Shown here: positions 6,607 to 52,908 of the stretch, piece by piece
Position numbering within the stretch: position 1 is the stretch's first letter
Layout: every line of letters begins with the position of its first letter
Assembly: GCF_009650215.1 (NCBI RefSeq)
Contig: NZ_CP045851.1
Location: 3,437,001 to 3,501,000, forward strand
Reading direction: 5' to 3'
DNA length: 64,000 nt
Source of the DNA: Actinomarinicola tropica
GTDB taxonomy: Bacteria > Actinomycetota > Acidimicrobiia > Acidimicrobiales > SKKL01
Made by a program: the position numbers and the translations under genes
Notes under the pieces: model-generated
What the model was told of the DNA's origin: nothing
What the model saw: only the letters and a program-made list of their open reading frames with translations
Databases searched by the model: none

Positions 6607-7266
6607 TCACGACGCGGTGAACGTCATCCGCGTGTTGCCGAACGTGAGGTCGTCGCCGTCCCGCAGCTCCTGCTGGGTGACCTTCACCCCGTTGACGCGG
6701 GTGCCGTTGGTGGAGCCGAGGTCGACCACGACGTAGCCGTCGCCCTGGGGTCGGACCTCGGCGTGGTTGCGGCTCACGTTGGGGTCGGCGAGCACGACCG
6801 TGGAGTCGGGCATCCGGCCGATGGTGACGACGTACTCGCCGAGCACGACCCGCTCGCCGGTGGGCAGCAGCAGCGACCCGGCGCCGCCCCCGCCCGGACC
6901 CTCGCGCAGGCGGCCCTCGACCCGCGACATGCCGGTGCGGAGCCGCTCGTCGACGACCATCTCCACCGAGACCGGGCCCATGAACGAGTAGCCCTCGTCC
7001 CGGGCGTGCTCGCGCGCGGCGTCGCACAGCTCACGGACGAGCGTGTCCTCGATGTCGGCGAACTGCTCGTGGTCCTCGGCCGAGAGGTGCACCGTGAACG
7101 AGTTGGGCACGACCTTGCGGCCACGGACGTCGACGGAGCGGTGGTCGTCCATGACGCGCACGACCTTGCGGCCGAGCTCGACGGGGCGCAGGCCCGACTT
7201 GAAGGCCCGGGCGAACACGCCTTCGACCATGCGCTCGAGCCGACGTTCGAACCCCTGCAACCCCAT
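6607..7266 (-). CDS. fhaA: FHA-domain protein FhaA (DUF3662 plus FHA)
   Basis: First gene of the kinase operon. It has 219 residues and an ATG at 7266. The N-terminal 120 residues (GFERRLERMVEGVFARAFKSGLRPVELGRKV) match the FhaA N-terminal domain (DUF3662), used in mycobacteria to bind the pseudokinase domain of MurJ/MviN. A Gly-rich hinge at about 122-130 precedes the FHA domain (VTIGRMPDSTVVL, VSRNHAEVR, DLGSTNGTRVNG). It is shorter than mycobacterial FhaA because the long Pro/Gln-rich linker is missing. The gene faces away from tRNA-Leu, with 87 bp between them. Confidence 0.93.
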   Translation of the reverse strand: MGLQGFERRLERMVEGVFARAFKSGLRPVELGRKVVRVMDDHRSVDVRGRKVVPNSFTVHLSAEDHEQFADIEDTLVRELCDAAREHARDEGYSFMGPVSVEMVVDERLRTGMSRVEGRLREGPGGGGAGSLLLPTGERVVLGEYVVTIGRMPDSTVVLADPNVSRNHAEVRPQGDGYVVVDLGSTNGTRVNGVKVTQQELRDGDDLTFGNTRMTFTAS

Positions 7267-26414: not shown

Positions 26415-27635
26415 CTACGCGGGCGGCGTGTCCTCGGGCCCCGGCGGGTGGGGATGGGGGTGCGGGTGGTCGTGCGCGTGGTGGTGCTCGGCCTCGGCGT
26501 GGGAGATGACGTCGCGCACCGGACGGCCGGTGCGCCGGGCGATGGCGGCGGCGTCGTCGAACTCGGCCTTGGCCCGGCCGGGCCCGACCTTCACGCGGAC
26601 CGGGTCGCCGTCGAGGTCGACGACCTCGGTGGAGCGCGCCGAGGGCCACCGCTCGAGGCGGGCGGCGCGCACGCCGAACGAGCCGGTCTCGTCCCGCATC
26701 ACCTGTGCGACCTGGGCATCGAGGGCGGGGTCGGCGAGGGCGCTCACCTTGTGCGCCGGCCGCCCCTTCTTCATGAGGATCGGCGAGACCCACGCGTCGT
26801 GCGCGCCGGCGTCGAGCAGGGCGGCGACAGCGTGGGCGAGGACCTCGCCGGTGACGTCGTCGACGTTGACCTCGAGGAGGGTGACGGGCTGGCCGCGCTC
26901 GAGCGTCTCGGTGCGGTCGCCCACGACCACCTGGACGAGGTTCGGCCGACCGTCGAGCTCGCGGGTACCGGCACCGAACCCGGCGCTCTGGATGGTCATG
27001 TCGGGGATCGGGCCCCACTCCCCGGCCAGCGCGGCGACGATGGCGGCGCCGGTGGGCGTGGTGAGCTCGACGGGCACGTCGAGACCGACCGTGGGGGCGC
27101 CACGGAGGAGCTCGACGACCGCCGGCGCGGGGTTGGGCAGCACGCCGTGGGCGGCGCGGATGGTGCCGAGGCCGTTGGCGACGGGGCTGCACGCCACCTC
27201 GTCGATGCCCAGGACCTCCAGGGCGGCGCAGGTCCCGACCACGTCGACGATGGCGTCGATGGCGCCGACCTCGTGGAAGTGGACCTGCTCGGGTGGTTGG
27301 CGGTGCAGGCGGCCCTCGGCGACGGCGAGGGCGTCGAAGACGGCGTGGGCGCGCCGCCGCACGCGATCGGGCAGGTCGGCGTCGTCGAGCAGCGCCGCGA
27401 TGTGGGACGCGGTGCGCACGACGTTGGTCGGCTCCTGGAGCACGTGCGCCTTGGTGCCGCCGATGCCGTTGCGCAGCACGGGTTCGACGTCGAGCGCCCA
27501 GCCCGGCAGGTCGAGCCCGTCGAGGATCGTGCGCACCTCGTCGACGTCGGCGCCGGCGTCGATCAGCGCGCCGAGCGCCATGTCGCCGGCGATGCCGGAG
27601 AAGCAGTGGAACCAGGCGACGCGGGTGGCGCTCAC
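26415..27635 (-). CDS. larC: LarC, nickel pincer cofactor biosynthesis protein
   Basis: Inserts nickel into the pyridinium dithiocarboxylate precursor (cyclometallase of the NPN cofactor pathway). It has 406 residues from GTG 27635, overlapping the larB stop (GTGA). Conserved parts: FHCFSGIAGDMALGALIDAGAD at the start, QVHFHEVGAIDAIVDVVG, NGLGTIRAAHGVLPNPAPAV, TPTGAAIVAAL and NVDDVTGEVLAHAVAALLDAGAHDAWVSPILMKKGRPAHKV. The C-terminal His-rich tail (HHHAHDHPHPHPHP) fits nickel handling. larE and an obvious larA are not in the window. Confidence 0.93.
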   Translation of the reverse strand: MSATRVAWFHCFSGIAGDMALGALIDAGADVDEVRTILDGLDLPGWALDVEPVLRNGIGGTKAHVLQEPTNVVRTASHIAALLDDADLPDRVRRRAHAVFDALAVAEGRLHRQPPEQVHFHEVGAIDAIVDVVGTCAALEVLGIDEVACSPVANGLGTIRAAHGVLPNPAPAVVELLRGAPTVGLDVPVELTTPTGAAIVAALAGEWGPIPDMTIQSAGFGAGTRELDGRPNLVQVVVGDRTETLERGQPVTLLEVNVDDVTGEVLAHAVAALLDAGAHDAWVSPILMKKGRPAHKVSALADPALDAQVAQVMRDETGSFGVRAARLERWPSARSTEVVDLDGDPVRVKVGPGRAKAEFDDAAAIARRTGRPVRDVISHAEAEHHHAHDHPHPHPHPPGPEDTPPA

Positions 27636-28411
27636 GAGGCGGGCTCCTCGGCGACGCGCAGGCGGCGGGTGCCACGGGGCAGGGCTCGGGCGACGGCCAT
27701 CGCGGCGCCGAACCCGTTGTCGATGCCGACGACGGTGATGCCCGCGGCGCACGAGGCGAGCATGCCGAGCAGGGCGGTGACGCCCTCGAGCCCGGCGCCG
27801 TAGCCGACGCTCGTGGGCACGGCGACGACGGGGCAGGCGGCGATGCCGCCGACGACGCTGGCCAGCGCGCCCTCCATGCCGGCGACGACGACCACCGCGT
27901 CGGCGGCGAGCAGCTCGTCGACCTCGGCGAGGATGCGGTGGATGCCGGCGACGCCGGCGTCGGTGATGCGGCGAGGCCGGAAGCCGAGGGCGTCGAGCAC
28001 CGCGGCGCACTCGTCGGCCACGGGCAGGTCGGCGGTGCCGGCGGTGACGACGACGACCCGCTCCGCTCGCTCCGAGGCACGGCGCCACACGACGGTGCCG
28101 GCGACCACCTCGCCCCCGGGGTGGGCGTCGAGCACCGCGGCGACCTGCGCGTCGTCCACGCGGGTGAGCAGCACCGGGCCGTCGGCCGGGACCGACAGCA
28201 GCTCCCCGACGACGAGCACGCACTGCTCGGGCGTCTTGCCCGGGCCGTACACCGCCTCGACCTGGTCCTGGCGCAGAGCCCGGTGGTGGTCGACCCGGGC
28301 GACGTCGAGGTCGGCGAACGGGGCGCGGCGCAGACGGGCCACGGCCTCGTCGGGCGTCACCGCACCGGTGCGCACGTCGTCGATCAACCCGTGCAGGGCG
28401 GCGAGGTCCAC
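27632..28411 (-). CDS. larB: LarB, pyridinium-3,5-biscarboxylate mononucleotide synthase
   Basis: Carboxylates and hydrolyses nicotinate adenine dinucleotide to start NPN cofactor synthesis. It has 259 residues from GTG 28411, the family length. A longer frame upstream would cross the pheA start. The helical N-terminus contains FADLDVARVDHHRALRQDQVEAVYGPGKT. The C-terminal AIR-carboxylase-like domain contains VVVTAGTADLPVADECA, DAGVAGIHRIL, VVVVAGMEGALASVVGG and VPTSVGYGAGLEGVTALLGML. The start lies only 19 bp from divergent pheA. Confidence 0.92.
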   Translation of the reverse strand: MDLAALHGLIDDVRTGAVTPDEAVARLRRAPFADLDVARVDHHRALRQDQVEAVYGPGKTPEQCVLVVGELLSVPADGPVLLTRVDDAQVAAVLDAHPGGEVVAGTVVWRRASERAERVVVVTAGTADLPVADECAAVLDALGFRPRRITDAGVAGIHRILAEVDELLAADAVVVVAGMEGALASVVGGIAACPVVAVPTSVGYGAGLEGVTALLGMLASCAAGITVVGIDNGFGAAMAVARALPRGTRRLRVAEEPAS

Positions 28412-28430
28412 GTCACTATCCTGGCCCCCC

Positions 28431-29396
28431 GTGACGGCCCCCGCAGCATCCGAGCTGTCGCTCCCGACCGGGGCACGCACGATCGCCTACCTGGGTCCGG
28501 CGGCGACCTTCAACCAGCAGGCGCTCCTCAGCCAGCCCGACCTGGCGGCGCTCGACGCCCGTCCGCTGCCGACGATCGGCGACGTGCTGGCCGCCACCGC
28601 GGCGGGCGACGTCGACCTCGGGCTCGTCCCGATCGAGAACGCCATCGAGGGGTCGGTCACGGTCACGCTCGACATGCTGGCGTTCGAGCTCGACCTGCTC
28701 ATCCAGCGTGAGATCGTCATCGACGTGTCGCTGAACCTGCTCGGCGTGCGGGGGGCACGGCTGGAGGACGTGCGCGAGGTCACCTCGATCGGCGTGGCCA
28801 CCGCCCAGTGCCGCCGCTTCATCATCGAGCACCTGCCCGGCGCGGTCGTCACCGCCGCCAACTCCACCGCGGAGGCGGCGCAGCGGGTGGCGAAGGACGG
28901 CGACCCGAGCGTGGCCGCCATCGGCACCGCGCTGGCGGCGGAGGTGTACGGCCTCGACGTGCTCGCCCCCGAGGTGGAGGACCACCCCGGCAACCAGACG
29001 CGCTTCGTGCTCGTCGCCCGAGAGGGGGTGCCTGCACCCACCGGTCACGACAAGTCGACGGTGGTGGTCTTCCAGCGCGCCGACGTCCCCGGCAGCCTGC
29101 TCTCGATCCTCCAGGAGTTCGCCGCCCGCGCCATCAACCTGTCGAAGCTGGAGTCCCGGCCCACCAAGCGCGGGCTCGGCGACTACTGCTTCATCATCGA
29201 CCTCGAGGGCCACGTCGACGACGAGCTCGTCGCCGACTGCCTGCGCGACCTGCGCAGCAAGCAGGCCGACGTGCGCTTCCTCGGGTCGTACCCCGCGGCG
29301 GGCGACCACGGCCCGGCGCTGCGGCGGGAGAACGTGGCGGCGTGGAAGGCGGCCGAGGAGTGGGTCGCGGCGCTGCGGGGCCAGGTCCGGCACTGA
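28431..29396 (+). CDS. pheA: Prephenate dehydratase with ACT domain
   Basis: Converts prephenate to phenylpyruvate in phenylalanine synthesis. It has 321 residues from GTG 28431; TATCCT at 28417-28422 is eight bases upstream. The catalytic domain at about 15-200 shows IAYLGPAATFNQQAL, LVPIENAIEGSVTVTLD and the diagnostic NQTRFVLVA. The ACT regulatory domain at about 210-290 has the ESRP segment (LSKLESRPTKRGLGDYCFIID) used for phenylalanine feedback. It is a stand-alone dehydratase with no chorismate mutase part. Confidence 0.95.
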   Translation: MTAPAASELSLPTGARTIAYLGPAATFNQQALLSQPDLAALDARPLPTIGDVLAATAAGDVDLGLVPIENAIEGSVTVTLDMLAFELDLLIQREIVIDVSLNLLGVRGARLEDVREVTSIGVATAQCRRFIIEHLPGAVVTAANSTAEAAQRVAKDGDPSVAAIGTALAAEVYGLDVLAPEVEDHPGNQTRFVLVAREGVPAPTGHDKSTVVVFQRADVPGSLLSILQEFAARAINLSKLESRPTKRGLGDYCFIIDLEGHVDDELVADCLRDLRSKQADVRFLGSYPAAGDHGPALRRENVAAWKAAEEWVAALRGQVRH

Positions 29397-29422
29397 CGAT
29401 GTTCGGTGGCCCGGCCTAGAGT
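29393..29422 (+). promoter_or_regulatory. Promoter of the mau-like operon
   Basis: -35 CTGACG (29393-29398), 18-base spacer, -10 TAGAGT (29417-29422). The -10 ends six bases before the GTG at 29429, so transcription should start at the start codon. Confidence 0.5.
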
Positions 29423-29428
29423 TGCCGG

Positions 29429-29989
29429 GTGCCAGTGCACGCCGTCCTGCTCCACGCCCTCGCCTTGGTGCTCGCCCTCGCGGGGGTGCGCAAGGTCATC
29501 GACCCTGCACCGGTCGCCGCCTCCCTGCGGCGCAGCGGACTGCCCTCCGCGCCCGTCCTCGGGCGGCTGCTCGGCGTGGTCGAGGTCGTCGTGTCGCTGG
29601 CGGTGCTCAGCACCGGCGGCGCGGTGCCCGCCGCCCTGATGGGCCTCGTCTACCTGGGCTTCCTCGCCTTCATCCTCAGCAACAAGCTGCGGGGCGCCGA
29701 CGTGCCCTGCGGGTGCTTCGGCGAGTCGACCACACCGCCCGGCGTCGCCCACATCGCGGTGAACACCGTCGCCGTCGCCGCGGCCGTCGCCGGCGTGCTC
29801 GACCCGTCCGACGGCGTGTTCGGCTGGATCGACGAAGGTGCCGTCGGGGTCGTCGCCCTGGCGCTCGTCGTCGTCGCCGGCGCACTCACCATCGCTCTCC
29901 TCGAGGTCCTCCCGGGGACCGCCTCCTCTGCTCTCGAGCAGGCCGACCGCGCGCGGGTCCCGACCTTCTCCCTCAAGGAGCCACGTTGA
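29429..29989 (+). CDS. MauE/DoxX-like redox-associated membrane protein
   Basis: 186 residues from GTG 29429. Four or five hydrophobic helices; the opening LALVLALAGVRKVIDPAPVAASLRRSGLP and a central PCGCFGE between helices are the MauE signature. MauE supports formation of the disulfides or maturation of the methylamine dehydrogenase small subunit. Its stop overlaps the next gene start (TTGA). The neighbours (MauA-like and MauD-like) confirm the assignment to a Mau-type maturation module. Confidence 0.85.
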   Translation: MPVHAVLLHALALVLALAGVRKVIDPAPVAASLRRSGLPSAPVLGRLLGVVEVVVSLAVLSTGGAVPAALMGLVYLGFLAFILSNKLRGADVPCGCFGESTTPPGVAHIAVNTVAVAAAVAGVLDPSDGVFGWIDEGAVGVVALALVVVAGALTIALLEVLPGTASSALEQADRARVPTFSLKEPR

Positions 29990-31206
29990 GCTTCGTCGAT
30001 CGCCTCGCGGAACGGATCGGCCCGGGTGACCGCCCGGGCCGTCGCAGCTTCCTCGGACGCGCCGCCATGGTCGGCAGCGCGATGGCGGTGGCACCGGTCG
30101 ACTTCATGACCCGCCCCGTCGACGCCCAGGACGTCGTCCTCGCCAGCAACGCGGTGTGCCGCAGCTACGGCTGCGGCGGCGGCCAGCTGTGCTGCGACGG
30201 CTACACCGAGTTCTGCTGCTCGCTCACCGGCTCGAACCGCTGCCCGCCGGGGTCGGTCACCGGCGGCTGGTGGAAGGTCGACTCGTCGACGTACTGCTCG
30301 GCCGGCGGCGACATCCGGCCCCGCTACTACCTCGACTGCCACAAGACCTGCGGCGGTTGCGCCTGCGCCGGCGGCACCTGCTCTGGCGACTGCAACGGCA
30401 CGCCCTGCGGCTGCGGCCGCCGGCCGGACGGCAGCTCGCTCGGCTGCGGCTACCGCAAGGCCGGCTGCACCCGCTTCCGCTACGGCCAGTGCAACCAGCA
30501 CATCGGCTGCGTCGGCCCCATCGTCTGCCGGGTGGTCACCTGCCTCACGCCGTGGCAGCTCGACCCCAACTGCACCCGGGCCACGCTCACCGACAACAAC
30601 ACCCGCTGGCACGACGCGCCGTGCCTGCACGCCGGGTTCAGCGACACGATCGACAACGCCTACTACGCCGACGCCGTCCAGTGGGCGGTGAACGTCGGCA
30701 TCACCACCGGCGTCGAGGGCCGCGACCTGTTCTTCCCGGACCGCCCCGTGAACCGGGCCGAGATCGTCACGTTCATGTGGCGGATGCTCGACCAGCCGCC
30801 GGCCCAGCCGCACTACCTCACCGACAACCCGGGCGGCACCTACTACCACAAGGCCGTCCAATGGGCCGCGGGCGAGGGCATCACCACCGGCTACGCCGGC
30901 ACCGACGAGTTCCGGCCCCAGCTCAACTGCACCCGCGGCGAGGCGGTCACGTTCTTCAAGCGGATGATGCGCAACCCTACGCCGAGCACCGCGCCCGAGT
31001 TCTCCGACGTCGACCCCAACGCCTTCTACGCCGACGCCGTGAAGTGGGCCGCCCACCACGGCGTCACCACCGGCGTCGGCGGGACCGGCCAGTTCCAGCC
31101 GCACGGGCTGCTCACCCGGGCCGAGGCCGTCACGTTCCTGTGGCGCATCGCCGGCAACCAGGCGCTGTGGCACCAGCGGCCGCCGTCGTCGAAGGTGAGG
31201 TTCTGA
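29986..31206 (+). CDS. Tat-exported Cys-rich protein like methylamine dehydrogenase light chain, fused to three SLH repeats
   Basis: 406 residues from TTG 29986, with AAGGAG five bases before it. The Tat signal contains RRSFLGRAAM (Arg 19-20). Residues about 58-200 are Cys-rich and resemble the MauA small subunit: LCCDGYTEFCCSLTGSNRCP, then WW at 95-96, YYLDCHKTCGGCAC, and HIGCVGPIVCRVVTC. MauA uses two cross-linked Trp for its TTQ cofactor. One Trp position is kept (WW), while the region of the second reads FRYGQC with no Trp. Residues about 212-395 are three SLH repeats (ITTGVEG, ITTGYAG, VTTGVGG, each with an aromatic-A-AVQWA/AVKWA opening). The role is unknown: a folded, disulfide-rich, possibly wall-attached redox protein. 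Confidence 0.82.
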   Translation: MSFVDRLAERIGPGDRPGRRSFLGRAAMVGSAMAVAPVDFMTRPVDAQDVVLASNAVCRSYGCGGGQLCCDGYTEFCCSLTGSNRCPPGSVTGGWWKVDSSTYCSAGGDIRPRYYLDCHKTCGGCACAGGTCSGDCNGTPCGCGRRPDGSSLGCGYRKAGCTRFRYGQCNQHIGCVGPIVCRVVTCLTPWQLDPNCTRATLTDNNTRWHDAPCLHAGFSDTIDNAYYADAVQWAVNVGITTGVEGRDLFFPDRPVNRAEIVTFMWRMLDQPPAQPHYLTDNPGGTYYHKAVQWAAGEGITTGYAGTDEFRPQLNCTRGEAVTFFKRMMRNPTPSTAPEFSDVDPNAFYADAVKWAAHHGVTTGVGGTGQFQPHGLLTRAEAVTFLWRIAGNQALWHQRPPSSKVRF

Positions 31207-31207
31207 G

Positions 31208-32038
31208 ATGACCACCGTCGCGCTCGTCGCGCTCACCGTCGTCGTCGCCCTCCTGGCCGTGCTCGTCGTGGGCCTGCTGCGCAGCCACGCCGCGATCCTG
31301 CGCCAGCTCCACGAGATCACCGGGGGCGAGGCCCACACCCACGACCACGACCACGACCACGACCTCGCACCGGCCCCGCCGGTCGAGGTCGGTCCGGGCG
31401 ATCCGCACCCGGTCAACCCCGCCCCGGGCGTCGCCCCGCCGCGGGAGGCCGCCGGCGCCCACGACATCGTGGGCATGACCCCGGACGGCTCGGCGGCCAC
31501 GGTCGGGCTCGCCGGTCGGGACCACCCGACGCTCGTGGCCTTCCTCACCTCCGGGTGCGGCACGTGCCTCGAGTTCTGGGGCGCGATCGCCGACCCGGCC
31601 GAGCGCACGCTCGTCGGCGCCGACACCCGCATCGTCATCGCCACCAAGGGCCCCGAGCGCGAGAGCGTCACCGACGTGGCCCGCCTCGCCCCGCCGGGCA
31701 TCACCACCGTGATGTCGACCGAGGCGTGGGAGGCCCACGAGGTCCCCGTCGCCCCCTACTTCATCCTCGTCGACGGCCGCGGCCACGTGGCCGGCGAGGG
31801 CGCCGCCACCACCTGGGAGCAGCTCACCGGGCTGCTCGGCCGGGCCGTGGCCGACACCACCGAGGCCAACGCCCGCAACGCCCGTCGGGCGGCGGGGCGG
31901 CGCGCCGCCGCGGTCGGCGGGTGGTCCACCCGTGAGGCCGACACCGACCAGGCGCTGCTCGACGCCGGCATCATGCCCGGCGACCCGAGCCTGTACGACC
32001 CGATGCCCGTGGCCGAACCCCCCGGAGACGACCGATGA
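31208..32038 (+). CDS. MauD-like membrane-anchored thioredoxin-fold protein
   Basis: 276 residues from ATG 31208, one base after the previous stop. N-terminal membrane anchor at about 3-25, then a His/Asp-rich stretch (HTHDHDHDHDL, about 43-52) and a Pro-rich linker. The thioredoxin-fold domain is at about 85-215, with TSGCGTCLEFW (Cys 117 and Cys 120) and the cis-Pro segment VPVAPYFILVDGRG. This is the arrangement of MauD, which forms or isomerises MauA disulfides outside the membrane. The C-terminal tail of about 60 residues is polar. Stop and next start overlap (ATGA). Confidence 0.85.
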   Translation: MTTVALVALTVVVALLAVLVVGLLRSHAAILRQLHEITGGEAHTHDHDHDHDLAPAPPVEVGPGDPHPVNPAPGVAPPREAAGAHDIVGMTPDGSAATVGLAGRDHPTLVAFLTSGCGTCLEFWGAIADPAERTLVGADTRIVIATKGPERESVTDVARLAPPGITTVMSTEAWEAHEVPVAPYFILVDGRGHVAGEGAATTWEQLTGLLGRAVADTTEANARNARRAAGRRAAAVGGWSTREADTDQALLDAGIMPGDPSLYDPMPVAEPPGDDR

Positions 32039-32511
32039 CCACCCTCGAGTCCGCGGGCATCAGCGTCGAGCTGCCGAACGGCTGGGAGGGTGGCGTCCGC
32101 ACGCGCGTCGACCCGGCGCCCGTCGCCCCCGGCGTGCAGCTCGCGAGCACGGGCCACTCGGCGGCCACCGCCCACATGGCCAACTTCGCCCTGCCGTCCG
32201 ACCGGGCCGACTTCGGCGGCGGTGCGGTCGAGCTCATGAACTCGAACCACATCTTCATGTCGCTCGTCGAGTTCGACGCCGACTCCGCCGGCACCGCGCT
32301 GTTCGCCGACCAGGGCGTCCCGCAGCTCAGCACGATCGACTTCGACCCCTACGCCCTGCAGCGGGTCATCCACGGCCAGTGCGGGCTCCAGCGGTTCTTC
32401 ACCGTCGCCGGCCGGCCGTTCTGCCTCTACGTCGTGCTCGGCCGGGAGGACAACCGCGGGCCGCTCGTGTCGCAGTGCAACGCCGTGCTGCGGTCGCTGC
32501 GCATCACCTGA
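32035..32511 (+). CDS. Unknown protein of the mau-like operon
   Basis: 158 residues from ATG 32035, overlapping the MauD-like stop. No signal peptide or membrane helix. It has a compact alpha/beta character (SAGISVELPNGWEGGVRTR at the start, FDPYALQRVIHGQCGLQRFF in the middle, QCNAVLRSLRIT at the end). SVELPNGWEGGV-type openings occur in proteins of the PsbP/Mog1-like fold. No function assigned. Strict coupling makes it part of the module. Confidence 0.7.
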   Translation: MTTLESAGISVELPNGWEGGVRTRVDPAPVAPGVQLASTGHSAATAHMANFALPSDRADFGGGAVELMNSNHIFMSLVEFDADSAGTALFADQGVPQLSTIDFDPYALQRVIHGQCGLQRFFTVAGRPFCLYVVLGREDNRGPLVSQCNAVLRSLRIT

Positions 32512-32562: not shown

Positions 32563-33174
32563 TCAGAGGTTCGACGGACGCAGGACGAGCGAGATGCCGT
32601 GGGCCACGCCGTTGCTCGCCTGGATGTCGAGCTTGCTGCGGACGAGCCACGGGTCGAGGTCGTTGCGGTCCTGGTCGACCAGGAGGGCCGTCCGACCGAA
32701 CGGGAACACCTTGATCGTGCCGCCCTGGAGCGTCGTGAGCTCCGTGCCGCGGGGCACGGACAGGGCGACGTCGGAGGTGATCTCGCCAGGGACGACGTGG
32801 TAGAGGATCACGGTCTGGAGGGTGCCGGGGGCGCTGGCCTCGAGCTCGGCCACCTTGTTCAGGATGGTCGCCTCGTCGGCGAACAGGTACCACCAGCCGT
32901 AGAGGTCGGCGACGAGGACCTGGAAGGCCCGGTCGTTCGGGATGAAGACGGTCAGGTCGGCCGACGGGTCGTCGAGGGCGTCGGACAGGCCCGCGACGTC
33001 GACGCCGGCGGCGAGGATGTCGAAGTCGTACCAGTTGCGGTCGGTGCCGCCGCCCTGGGCGTCGAGGATGTCGGCGAGGGTCGGCCCCGACTGCGCCTCG
33101 GCCGGCGACGCGAGGCCGGTGACGGCCAGGGCGGCGAACGCCGCGGTCGCGGCGACGAGCTTCCGGATCTTCAT
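32563..33174 (-). CDS. Secreted fasciclin (FAS1) domain protein
   Basis: 203 residues from ATG 33174 with signal peptide MKIRKLVAATAAFAALAVTG cleaved near SPAEA-QS. One FAS1 domain at about 55-200: LTVFIPNDRAFQVLVADLYG (H1 box), TLQTVILYHVVPGEITS, and the end ASNGVAHGISLVLRP (H2 box with NGVAHGI). It is probably extracellular, in adhesion or matrix. The ribosome site AAGGAGAC is eight bases upstream. Confidence 0.9.
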   Translation of the reverse strand: MKIRKLVAATAAFAALAVTGLASPAEAQSGPTLADILDAQGGGTDRNWYDFDILAAGVDVAGLSDALDDPSADLTVFIPNDRAFQVLVADLYGWWYLFADEATILNKVAELEASAPGTLQTVILYHVVPGEITSDVALSVPRGTELTTLQGGTIKVFPFGRTALLVDQDRNDLDPWLVRSKLDIQASNGVAHGISLVLRPSNL

Positions 33175-33303
33175 GGCTGGGTCTCCTTGTGGGGGGTGGT
33201 GCGGTGGCGCCCGCACGGCCTCCTTCGCCTGTGCCGCCGGTCACGGATGCACCCTCGCCGTCGGGGTTCCCGCCAGGGGGCCGGTGCTACCGTCGCTGCC
33301 TCT

Positions 33304-51645: not shown

Positions 51646-52100
51646 CCGTCGAGTTCGAGAACGTCACGACCATCGCCGCGCCGATCGAGGTCGTGTTCGA
51701 CCTCTCGCTCGACATCGACGCACACCTCGCCTCGATGGCCGACTCCGGCGAACGCGCTATTGCCGGGACCACCAGCGGGCTGATCGGCCTGGGCGAGACG
51801 GTCACCTGGCGAGCCAGACACTTCGGCATCCCTTTCACCATGACCAGCAAGGTCACCGAGTGGGACCGCCCTCACCGTTTCGTCGACGAGCAGATCCGCG
51901 GCCCGTTCCGATCCTTCCACCACGAGCACCGCTTCGAGGCGTCCGAGAGCACGACCGTCATGACCGACCGGATTCGCTTCGACGCACCGCTCGGTCCGAT
52001 CGGCCGCGTCGTCGAGCACCTCGTGCTCGGCCGGTACCTCCGCACGCTGATCGCCGCGCGGGGTCAGTACCTGAAGGGCGAAGCCGAACGCCGGGGATGA
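51642..52100 (+). CDS. SRPBCC-family ligand-binding protein
   Basis: 152 residues from GTG 51642. START/SRPBCC fold: VEFENVTTIAAPIEVVFDLSLDIDAHLASM opening, TVTWRARHFGIPFTMTSKVTEWDRPHRFVDEQIRGPFRSFHHEHRFE, then the long C-terminal helix VEHLVLGRYLRTLIAARGQYLK. Usually binds hydrophobic molecules. Co-translated with the gene fragment before it in the MerR-controlled transcript. Confidence 0.85.
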   Translation: MTVEFENVTTIAAPIEVVFDLSLDIDAHLASMADSGERAIAGTTSGLIGLGETVTWRARHFGIPFTMTSKVTEWDRPHRFVDEQIRGPFRSFHHEHRFEASESTTVMTDRIRFDAPLGPIGRVVEHLVLGRYLRTLIAARGQYLKGEAERRG

Positions 52101-52191
52101 TCTCAAGCGTCGCCAGCATCGCGGGTCGTCTCACGGACCACCTGCAAATAGCCGCTTGCTGCTCGGCTGCTCGACCGCGACGATCGCCGCC

Positions 52192-52665
52192 ATGAAGCTT
52201 GCCGAGGCACTCAGCCTCCGTAGTGACGCCCAGAAGCGACTCGCCCAGCTGCAGGCCCGCGCCGTGGCCAGTGCGCGCTACCAGGAGGGCGAGGCGTCCC
52301 CCGAGGATCCGAACGCTCTCCTCGCAGAGGCCCGCGAGGTGGTCGCGGAGATCGAGTCCCTCGTCCGTCGCATCAACCGGACGAACGCCGCGGTCGAGCT
52401 GGAGCCCGGTCTCACCATCACCGACGCGATCGCGCGCCGCGACGCGCTGGCCAACGAGCGCTCCATCGTCGCCGCGCTGGCCGACGCGGCCTCCGGCGGC
52501 AGCGCAGGCGGCGGCTTCGGCCGCCAGCTGCGATCGGAGCTGCGGTTCCTGACCGACGTCCCGATCCCGCAGCTGCGCGCCGAGGCCGACGCGCTGGCCC
52601 GTCGGTACCGCGAGCTCGACACCAGGCTGCAGGAGGCCAACTGGACGACGGAACTTCTCGACTGA
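52192..52665 (+). CDS. DIP1984-family (septicolysin-like) protein
   Basis: 157 residues from ATG 52192. Helical coiled-coil protein with the family layout: MKLAEALSLRSDAQKRLAQLQARAVASARYQEGE, ARE ... IESLVRRINRTNAAVEL, LTITDAIARRDAL, PIPQLRAEADALARRYRELDTRLQEANW. Function unknown. No signal peptide. Its stop codon lies within the left arm of the inverted-repeat element. Confidence 0.85.
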   Translation: MKLAEALSLRSDAQKRLAQLQARAVASARYQEGEASPEDPNALLAEAREVVAEIESLVRRINRTNAAVELEPGLTITDAIARRDALANERSIVAALADAASGGSAGGGFGRQLRSELRFLTDVPIPQLRAEADALARRYRELDTRLQEANWTTELLD

Positions 52666-52908
52666 TCCGGGCGGGGCGGCCAGTCGGTAGCCCCGAGCGG
52701 AGCGTGCACGAAGGCCGATGTGCCGGCGGCCGAAGACCGGCGCTCATGGCAGGGCGTGAGGGGCACGCCCTCGGGGTTCGACTCCCCGTGCTCACCGTGC
52801 AACCCCGAACAGGGCACACGTCATCGAGCACCACGCAACGAGCACAACCACGTGCAGGCCGCTCAGGGTGAGGGTGGGTCAGGGGACCTGGCCGCCCCGC
52901 CCGGATCA
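52663..52908. repeat. 246-bp element bounded by 21-bp perfect inverted repeats
   Basis: Arms 52663-52683 and 52888-52908 are exact complements (inner 20 bases of the left arm: GATCCGGGCGGGGCGGCCAG). The 204 bp inside have no convincing gene but hold further hairpins: GGGCGTG/CACGCCC, and CGGGG-TTCGACT-CCCCG, which is a perfect tRNA T-arm shape. GTGCTC can pair with two GAGCAC copies downstream. No tRNA can be built around the T-arm. Candidate structured RNA, MITE-like element or very large bidirectional terminator. Confidence 0.75.

Follow-up and report, generated by a model that had tools for sequence, protein, structure and literature searches.

A predicted disulfide-maturation pathway of Mau proteins for a wall-anchored cysteine-rich client in Acidimicrobiia, with MauF as a candidate selenoprotein

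What do proteins of the methylamine dehydrogenase maturation machinery serve in an organism where no MauB is found? This question is raised by an operon of Actinomarinicola tropica, located within a window of 64,000 nucleotides (the whole stretch of DNA that was analysed, positions 3,437,001 to 3,501,000 of contig NZ_CP045851.1; coordinates below are those of the window), which codes for a MauE-like membrane protein, a cysteine-rich exported protein, a MauD-like thioredoxin-fold protein and a protein without known family, here designated UNK. The mau cluster of Paracoccus denitrificans (mauFBEDACJGMN) functions in the maturation of methylamine dehydrogenase, and MauF is the third maturation protein of that cluster. 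We propose, at a probability of roughly 0.62, that the A. tropica operon and an unlinked mauF gene together constitute a pathway that matures disulfides outside the cytoplasm and is dedicated to a single wall-anchored client, with MauF being a selenoprotein in most lineages. The operon comprises the following features:

29429..29989, plus strand: MauE-like polytopic membrane protein, 186 amino acids, GTG start at 29429 (PF07291, E 1.2e-18)
29986..31206, plus strand: cysteine-rich surface protein exported by twin-arginine translocation (Tat), 406 amino acids, TTG start (TIGR01409, 19.1 bits; 65 related contigs)
29986..30126, plus strand: twin-arginine signal region of that protein (residues 1-47, RRSFLGR), similar to the long MauA leader
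30127..30627, plus strand: its cysteine-rich domain (residues 48-214) with 24 cysteines (alignment of 48 relatives; AlphaFold model)
30637..31149, plus strand: its three S-layer homology (SLH) repeats, a wall anchor (residues 218-388; PF00395, E 2.8e-23)
31208..32038, plus strand: MauD-like protein, 276 amino acids, with an N-terminal transmembrane anchor, a thioredoxin-like domain and CxxC (TIGR02661, E 7.6e-5; hhalign to P. denitrificans MauD)
32035..32511, plus strand: UNK, 158 amino acids, without Pfam match (family alignment; AlphaFold; co-occurrence)

The four genes are tightly coupled, as the initial annotation had read off the sequence: the first two overlap in a TTGA (29986-29989), a single base pair (31207) separates the second from the third, and the last two overlap in an ATGA (32035-32038). 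The start of the operon had been placed at 29393, a position that instead falls within the end of an upstream prephenate dehydratase-like open reading frame, the MauE-like protein beginning at the GTG given above.

Distribution of the module and the absence of MauB

The arrangement is far from chance, as it recurs widely: a search with the cysteine-rich domain recovered 65 genome contigs, nearly all labelled as metagenome-assembled genomes of Acidimicrobiia, Acidimicrobiales or Actinomycetes, and of 396 Actinomycetota genomes scanned with an alignment profile of the cysteine-rich family, 31 contain it. Among 64 loci whose neighborhoods were inspected, the cysteine-rich gene is accompanied by mauE in 56, by mauD in 57 and by UNK in 55; in 45 of them it additionally stands beside a membrane gene of about 196 codons, which proved to be mauF. 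Across Acidimicrobiia the gene order is mauE-Cys-mauD-(mauF)-UNK, while in other Actinomycetota it is usually mauE-mauD-mauF-UNK-Cys (Cys denoting the gene for the cysteine-rich protein). The source genome of the window, a single contig of 3.7 Mb that groups with the Acidimicrobiia-type relatives, carries its mauF unlinked to the operon, on the minus strand of contig C1 at about 51978-52829 (search match C1:52182-52748, E 2.4e-53). All four genes of the initial annotation are real, but the set was incomplete, its fifth member lying elsewhere in the genome.

The cysteine-rich protein, strong MauF matches and UNK occur in an identical set of 17 out of 59 relatives, some of which carry mauF at a great distance or on a separate contig; with phylogeny ignored, the probability of such agreement at random for one pair of sets is 1/C(59,17) = 3.6e-15. 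MauB (PF06433) was found in none of 44 genomes with the module, that of the window among them, with P. denitrificans MauB as the control being recovered at E 2.4e-212. The window's genome, the only one searched for MauG (PF03150), yielded no match to this family either, and the same search worked on the Escherichia coli control. Given the exact co-occurrence and the lack of MauB, we propose a five-part system whose members are passed on together while the dehydrogenase is lacking. These results bear out the earlier statement that mauB and mauG are absent, show the genes keeping company without mauB, and, through the absence of both proteins, support as probable the view that the maturation machinery has been redirected to a different exported protein.

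The individual components can be tied to their Mau counterparts with differing stringency. MauE exceeds the PF07291 cut-off by a wide margin (68.1 bits against 27) and shares with ten other aligned MauE proteins, including that of P. denitrificans, an invariant CGCF motif, which together secure its identity. With 22.3 bits against a cut-off of 188.6, the MauD-like protein is a long way from qualifying for the TIGR02661 equivalog; however, its family profile aligns with P. denitrificans MauD in hhalign (95.5%, E 1.6e-8), and C117 and C120 of the CxxC motif as well as P183 are retained in all aligned members. Hence, its earlier description as a MauD-like thioredoxin-fold protein stands with regard to homology, although not at the level of the equivalog, and it is best regarded as a member of the MauD superfamily with a membrane-anchored thioredoxin fold. 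For the fifth gene, a hidden Markov model detected P. denitrificans MauF (3e-19) and a homolog from Thermomicrobium roseum (7e-14), and hhalign of the family against P. denitrificans MauF gave 97.3% and E 1.6e-11; a protein search of plasmids with the MauF of the window's genome returned no match. A MauF homolog from a relative also passes the cut-off of PF13386 (DsbD_2), with 30.6 and 29.3 bits against 24.9. The possibility that MauF acts as a two-cysteine conduit of the CcdA type was considered and rejected, as the family possesses a single conserved cysteine or selenocysteine position.

The candidate selenocysteine of MauF

That position is the focus of an unusual variation among relatives. 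In 40 of the 45 loci with an adjacent mauF an in-frame stop codon occurs at the same site upstream of the apparent MauF start, and this stop is always TGA. It falls exactly on the cysteine of the motif STWSPCG, which is present as cysteine in P. denitrificans and in the window's genome, where the motif is intact. In a wider set of MauF loci, TGA stands at that codon in 63 distinct cases and cysteine in 12, while TAA and TAG never occur. Could the TGA be an ordinary stop that ends a short upstream peptide, with MauF starting at the next ATG? The presence of an ATG four codons on in most Acidimicrobiia loci would favor this; however, the frame upstream of the TGA continues a protein that in P. 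denitrificans, as in 11 cysteine forms from actinobacteria, has no interruption, the stop coincides precisely with the cysteine and is TGA in 63 of 63 instances, the downstream RNA structure appears to be under selection, and a selenocysteine tRNA (tRNA-Sec) co-occurs with it, so that we consider an ordinary stop highly improbable. A start at the downstream ATG was also rejected on the grounds that a GES tripeptide is shared between the stop and the apparent start in nearly all loci.

With respect to RNA structure, the folding of the 42 nucleotides that come after the TGA is more stable than that of synonymous recodings, with a mean z of -1.45 for 63 sequences, whereas this does not hold for those following the cysteine codon of cysteine-type mauF (mean z -0.18, n=12). 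Two hairpins 3' of the TGA, in a structure named by hand, show pairing in 91.5% of cells and compensatory changes in 19 cells against 4.8 in shuffles, with none of 500 shuffles reaching as high a value. The second hairpin is shifted in register in one or two lineages and was not returned in an RNAalifold consensus of the TGA region.

Furthermore, tRNA-Sec was detected in 27 of 27 genomes with a TGA-type mauF as against one of seven with a cysteine-type mauF (Fisher 5e-6), where a call requires at least 56 bits, ordinary tRNAs scoring up to 53, and the split was set after the scores had been seen. ARAGORN reported tRNA-SeC(tca) in all 10 of the hit loci that were checked, and one genome with the module has a SelB gene close to that for tRNA-Sec. 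The best match in the window's genome is a tRNA-Gly. Taken together, these comparisons of gene and RNA sequences are best read as indicating that MauF is probably a selenoprotein in most lineages, the window's genome representing a cysteine branch without tRNA-Sec; the insertion of selenocysteine at the TGA would follow from this reading. The interpretation of the single conserved cysteine position of MauF as selenocysteine in most lineages suggests that this residue is redox-catalytic. tRNA-Sec is patchy in the order; of the 42 relatives that lack the module (among G001 to G058), about 25 have it as well, implying that MauF is not the sole reason for retaining the selenocysteine machinery and that other selenoproteins must be common there.

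The client, its relation to MauA and the proposed pathway

The cysteine-rich protein carries a Tat signal above threshold (the TIGR01409 cut-off being 16.7 bits), which upholds its predicted export. Its mature domain has between 18 and 28 cysteines across relatives, including CC and CxC motifs, and the count is even in 47 of 48 cases; W95, W96, D117 and Y166 are invariant in the alignment of the 48 relatives. The AlphaFold model of the domain has a pLDDT (the program's own confidence score) of 80.9. The initial annotation, while right about Tat export and cysteine richness, had overlooked the three C-terminal SLH repeats (PF00395, 82 bits in three stretches), for which matches in PDB are the SLH structures of the S-layer protein Sap (3pyw/6bt4). 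On the basis of these repeats the predicted location of the protein is the cell wall. Among relatives the C-terminal part is variable, with SLH, LGFP, CW_binding_2, ricin lectin or DUF4214, and is absent in some lineages; as it is swapped or dispensed with, the cysteine-rich domain is likely to be the constant part and the remainder to serve in anchoring. Beta-propeller-like repeats found at the C-terminus in many relatives were considered as a substitute for MauB and discarded, since other relatives carry LGFP, CWB2, ricin or SLH there.

The label "MauA-like" does not hold for the mature domain, which lacks a real profile match. Neither the window protein nor any of 48 relatives matches PF02975; no PF02975 protein was found elsewhere in the window's genome, and the 396 Actinomycetota genomes gave nothing beyond noise below the cut-off. 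A profile of the family used in hmmsearch against PDB matched no methylamine dehydrogenase light chain, though that of P. denitrificans is present there, and Foldseek against PDB with the AlphaFold model found no match, small cysteine-rich folds being hard for this program. Full-length hhalign against a MauA-type profile does reach 97%, but largely owing to the Tat leader: against proteobacterial MauA proper 47 leader columns align and nothing else, and without the leader the score of 26.5 (24.1 with a broader family) lies about at the top of column-shuffled controls. With these four approaches negative or near chance, we rejected the mature domain as an identifiable MauA homolog. There is, nevertheless, a collinear motif, CPPG...W...C...YxDC, in which W95/W96 and D117 correspond in order to W57 and D76 of MauA. 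The tryptophan pair from which tryptophan tryptophylquinone (TTQ) is made is represented by the invariant W57-like residue only: in the motif alignment, itself uncertain, the position of W108 is occupied by Gln in 44 and Asn in four of 48 sequences. The term therefore appears valid only with regard to position, Tat export, cysteine richness and the shared CPPG...W motif, and common descent of the client and MauA is possible.

UNK belongs to no Pfam family and has no recognised signal peptide. Its AlphaFold model is confident (pLDDT 92.6), for which Foldseek returned Tsi3, PsbP and LpqN as weak matches, suggesting that it may adopt an alpha/beta fold of the PsbP/Tsi3 type. No UNK gene was found in the stretches of P. 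denitrificans and T. roseum that were inspected. UNK had been listed simply as an unknown soluble protein; this is apt as to family but incomplete, as UNK is a strictly conserved component.

In the pathway that we propose, the client, with 24 cysteines in the A. tropica version, would leave the cell via Tat and stay on the wall by means of its SLH repeats. MauF, whose one cysteine or selenocysteine belongs to an intramembrane SPC motif resembling that of DsbD/CcdA, and MauE, with its CGC motif, would carry redox equivalents through the membrane and hand them to MauD, which in turn would form or reshuffle disulfides of the client by the CxxC of its anchored thioredoxin fold. We infer both the direction of electron flow and the disulfide chemistry of this scheme. 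Based on its strict co-inheritance with the client and the lack of a recognised signal peptide, UNK is probably, as a guess, a client-specific cytoplasmic chaperone or quality-control factor acting ahead of Tat export.

Several observations weigh against the pathway or its selenoprotein component. MauF has one cysteine or selenocysteine where CcdA and DsbD have two, so a mechanism like theirs does not apply; homology between the client and MauA is not established; and the role of UNK is guessed from co-occurrence, from weak similarities in fold and from the signal peptide that it apparently lacks. Rfam at gathering thresholds gave no match in four loci with TGA-type mauF. The 11 actinobacterial cysteine-type MauF proteins form one clade (100/100 support), which means that the correlation with tRNA-Sec rests on few independent events, and a single genome with cysteine-type MauF, G048 (mauF on C361, tRNA-Sec on C536), has tRNA-Sec nonetheless. 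The tRNA-Sec of G048 may serve another selenoprotein.

The identity of the client also admits readings other than disulfide maturation. It might be a metal binder for copper, zinc or an iron-sulfur center, kept reduced by the Mau proteins and acting as a surface metal store or sensor: the number of cysteines and their CC and CxC motifs would suit such a function, and a thioredoxin fold coupled to a membrane cysteine or selenocysteine protein could be reducing, as in CcdA/DsbD. However, the even cysteine counts are what disulfides predict, and MauA, the closest functional analogue, has six disulfides in the light chain, such bonds being usual in extracytoplasmic cysteine-rich proteins of this kind; we therefore regard a metal binder as unlikely. 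Slightly less likely still is that the client is a divergent MauA bearing a tryptophan-derived quinone, i.e. a Mau-matured surface redox enzyme or electron carrier. The company of MauE, MauD and MauF homologs, the similar Tat leader and the common CPPG-(x)n-W-(x)n-C-(x)n-YxDC pattern with its invariant residues point in this direction, as does the finding that T. roseum proteins of PF02975 with both tryptophans adjoin mauE, mauD and mauF; yet the profile and structure comparisons described above do not support it, Gln or Asn in place of W108 means that TTQ cannot form as known, and its partners MauB and MauG were not recovered in the genomes searched for them. A more speculative variant, which we deem very unlikely, is that the invariant Trp-Trp pair of the client, together with D117 and Y166, bears a new protein-derived cofactor, whose synthesis would involve a selenoprotein in the membrane but no MauG; the wall-anchored client would then itself conduct electrons or act as a redox enzyme, and not be a structural disulfide protein.

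Two observations on neighboring genes, both made by eye, may be added. The open reading frames adjoining the module on the minus strand at 26415-28480 resemble LarB/LarC-type proteins of the nickel-pincer cofactor, and the convergent minus-strand gene that follows UNK (32563-33216) appears to code for a secreted protein of the fasciclin type, which would be a second surface protein beside the module.

Comparison with known systems

These results strengthen the interpretation offered initially, in which the maturation machinery has been redirected, and extend it to five components, a wall-anchored client and, in most lineages, a putative selenoprotein helper. If true, the proposal adds a candidate family of integral-membrane selenoproteins in Actinomycetota and, from one sequence, in T. 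roseum, along with a strictly co-inherited five-gene pathway that includes a new protein family, UNK, and by which Acidimicrobiia and related bacteria, organisms mostly known from metagenomes, would make a disulfide-rich protein anchored to the wall.

As in known prokaryotic selenoproteins, the MauF genes of relatives combine an in-frame TGA opposite cysteine in homologs, a downstream hairpin and a genomic tRNA-Sec; in contrast to these, MauF is missing from the 119 prokaryotic selenoprotein families of a 2026 review (PMC13188914), although a groundwater survey of metagenome-assembled genomes cited therein could contain one. No MauF selenoprotein figures in the deep-Sep paper (PMC12013277), no NCBIfam model for one matches, and a text search for MauF and selenoprotein together found none among the papers that it covered. 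The CcdA/DsbD family (PF13386) resembles MauF, as seen from the homolog above the Pfam cut-off and from an SPC-type motif near the first transmembrane helix, but MauF differs in its single cysteine or selenocysteine and in being strictly linked to a cysteine-rich client. Use of MauE and MauD outside methylamine dehydrogenase has a parallel in Streptomyces, where, in the part of the study available to us, the two occur outside a mau cluster and another substrate was suggested, with precursors of ribosomally synthesized and post-translationally modified peptides being proposed (PMC7794033); that part describes no MauF, SLH client or selenocysteine.

A related system is the cluster at 1800-12350 of L089, the label used here for the T. 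roseum DSM 5159 plasmid (NC_011961.1). It comprises a fusion of a propeller to MauE, MauD-like and MauF-like genes, several propeller-like proteins and two members of PF02975 in which both TTQ tryptophans are retained, with no PF06433, and is possibly an undescribed TTQ enzyme. A third cysteine-rich open reading frame near 6772 is apparently disrupted in frame. The T. roseum MauF homolog (at about 11744 of L089) has TGA at WSP-x-G, and no tRNA-Sec was found on the plasmid. The cluster thus shares with the module MauD-like and TGA-type MauF-like proteins as well as MauE, which there is joined to a propeller-like domain, all beside cysteine-rich exported proteins, and differs from it in that the latter match PF02975 and in that UNK is missing from the stretch.

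According to one study, growth of Paracoccus on methylamine depends crucially on its mau genes (PMC4543880). The P. denitrificans cluster resembles the module in possessing MauF, MauE and MauD homologs with conserved cysteine motifs and a cysteine-rich exported client with a Tat leader. It is set apart from the module by the lack in the latter of MauB, in all genomes carrying it, and of MauG, in the window's genome, as well as by a client that lies outside PF02975 and bears wall-anchoring repeats, by the additional component UNK, and by a MauF that mostly has TGA at its conserved cysteine position.

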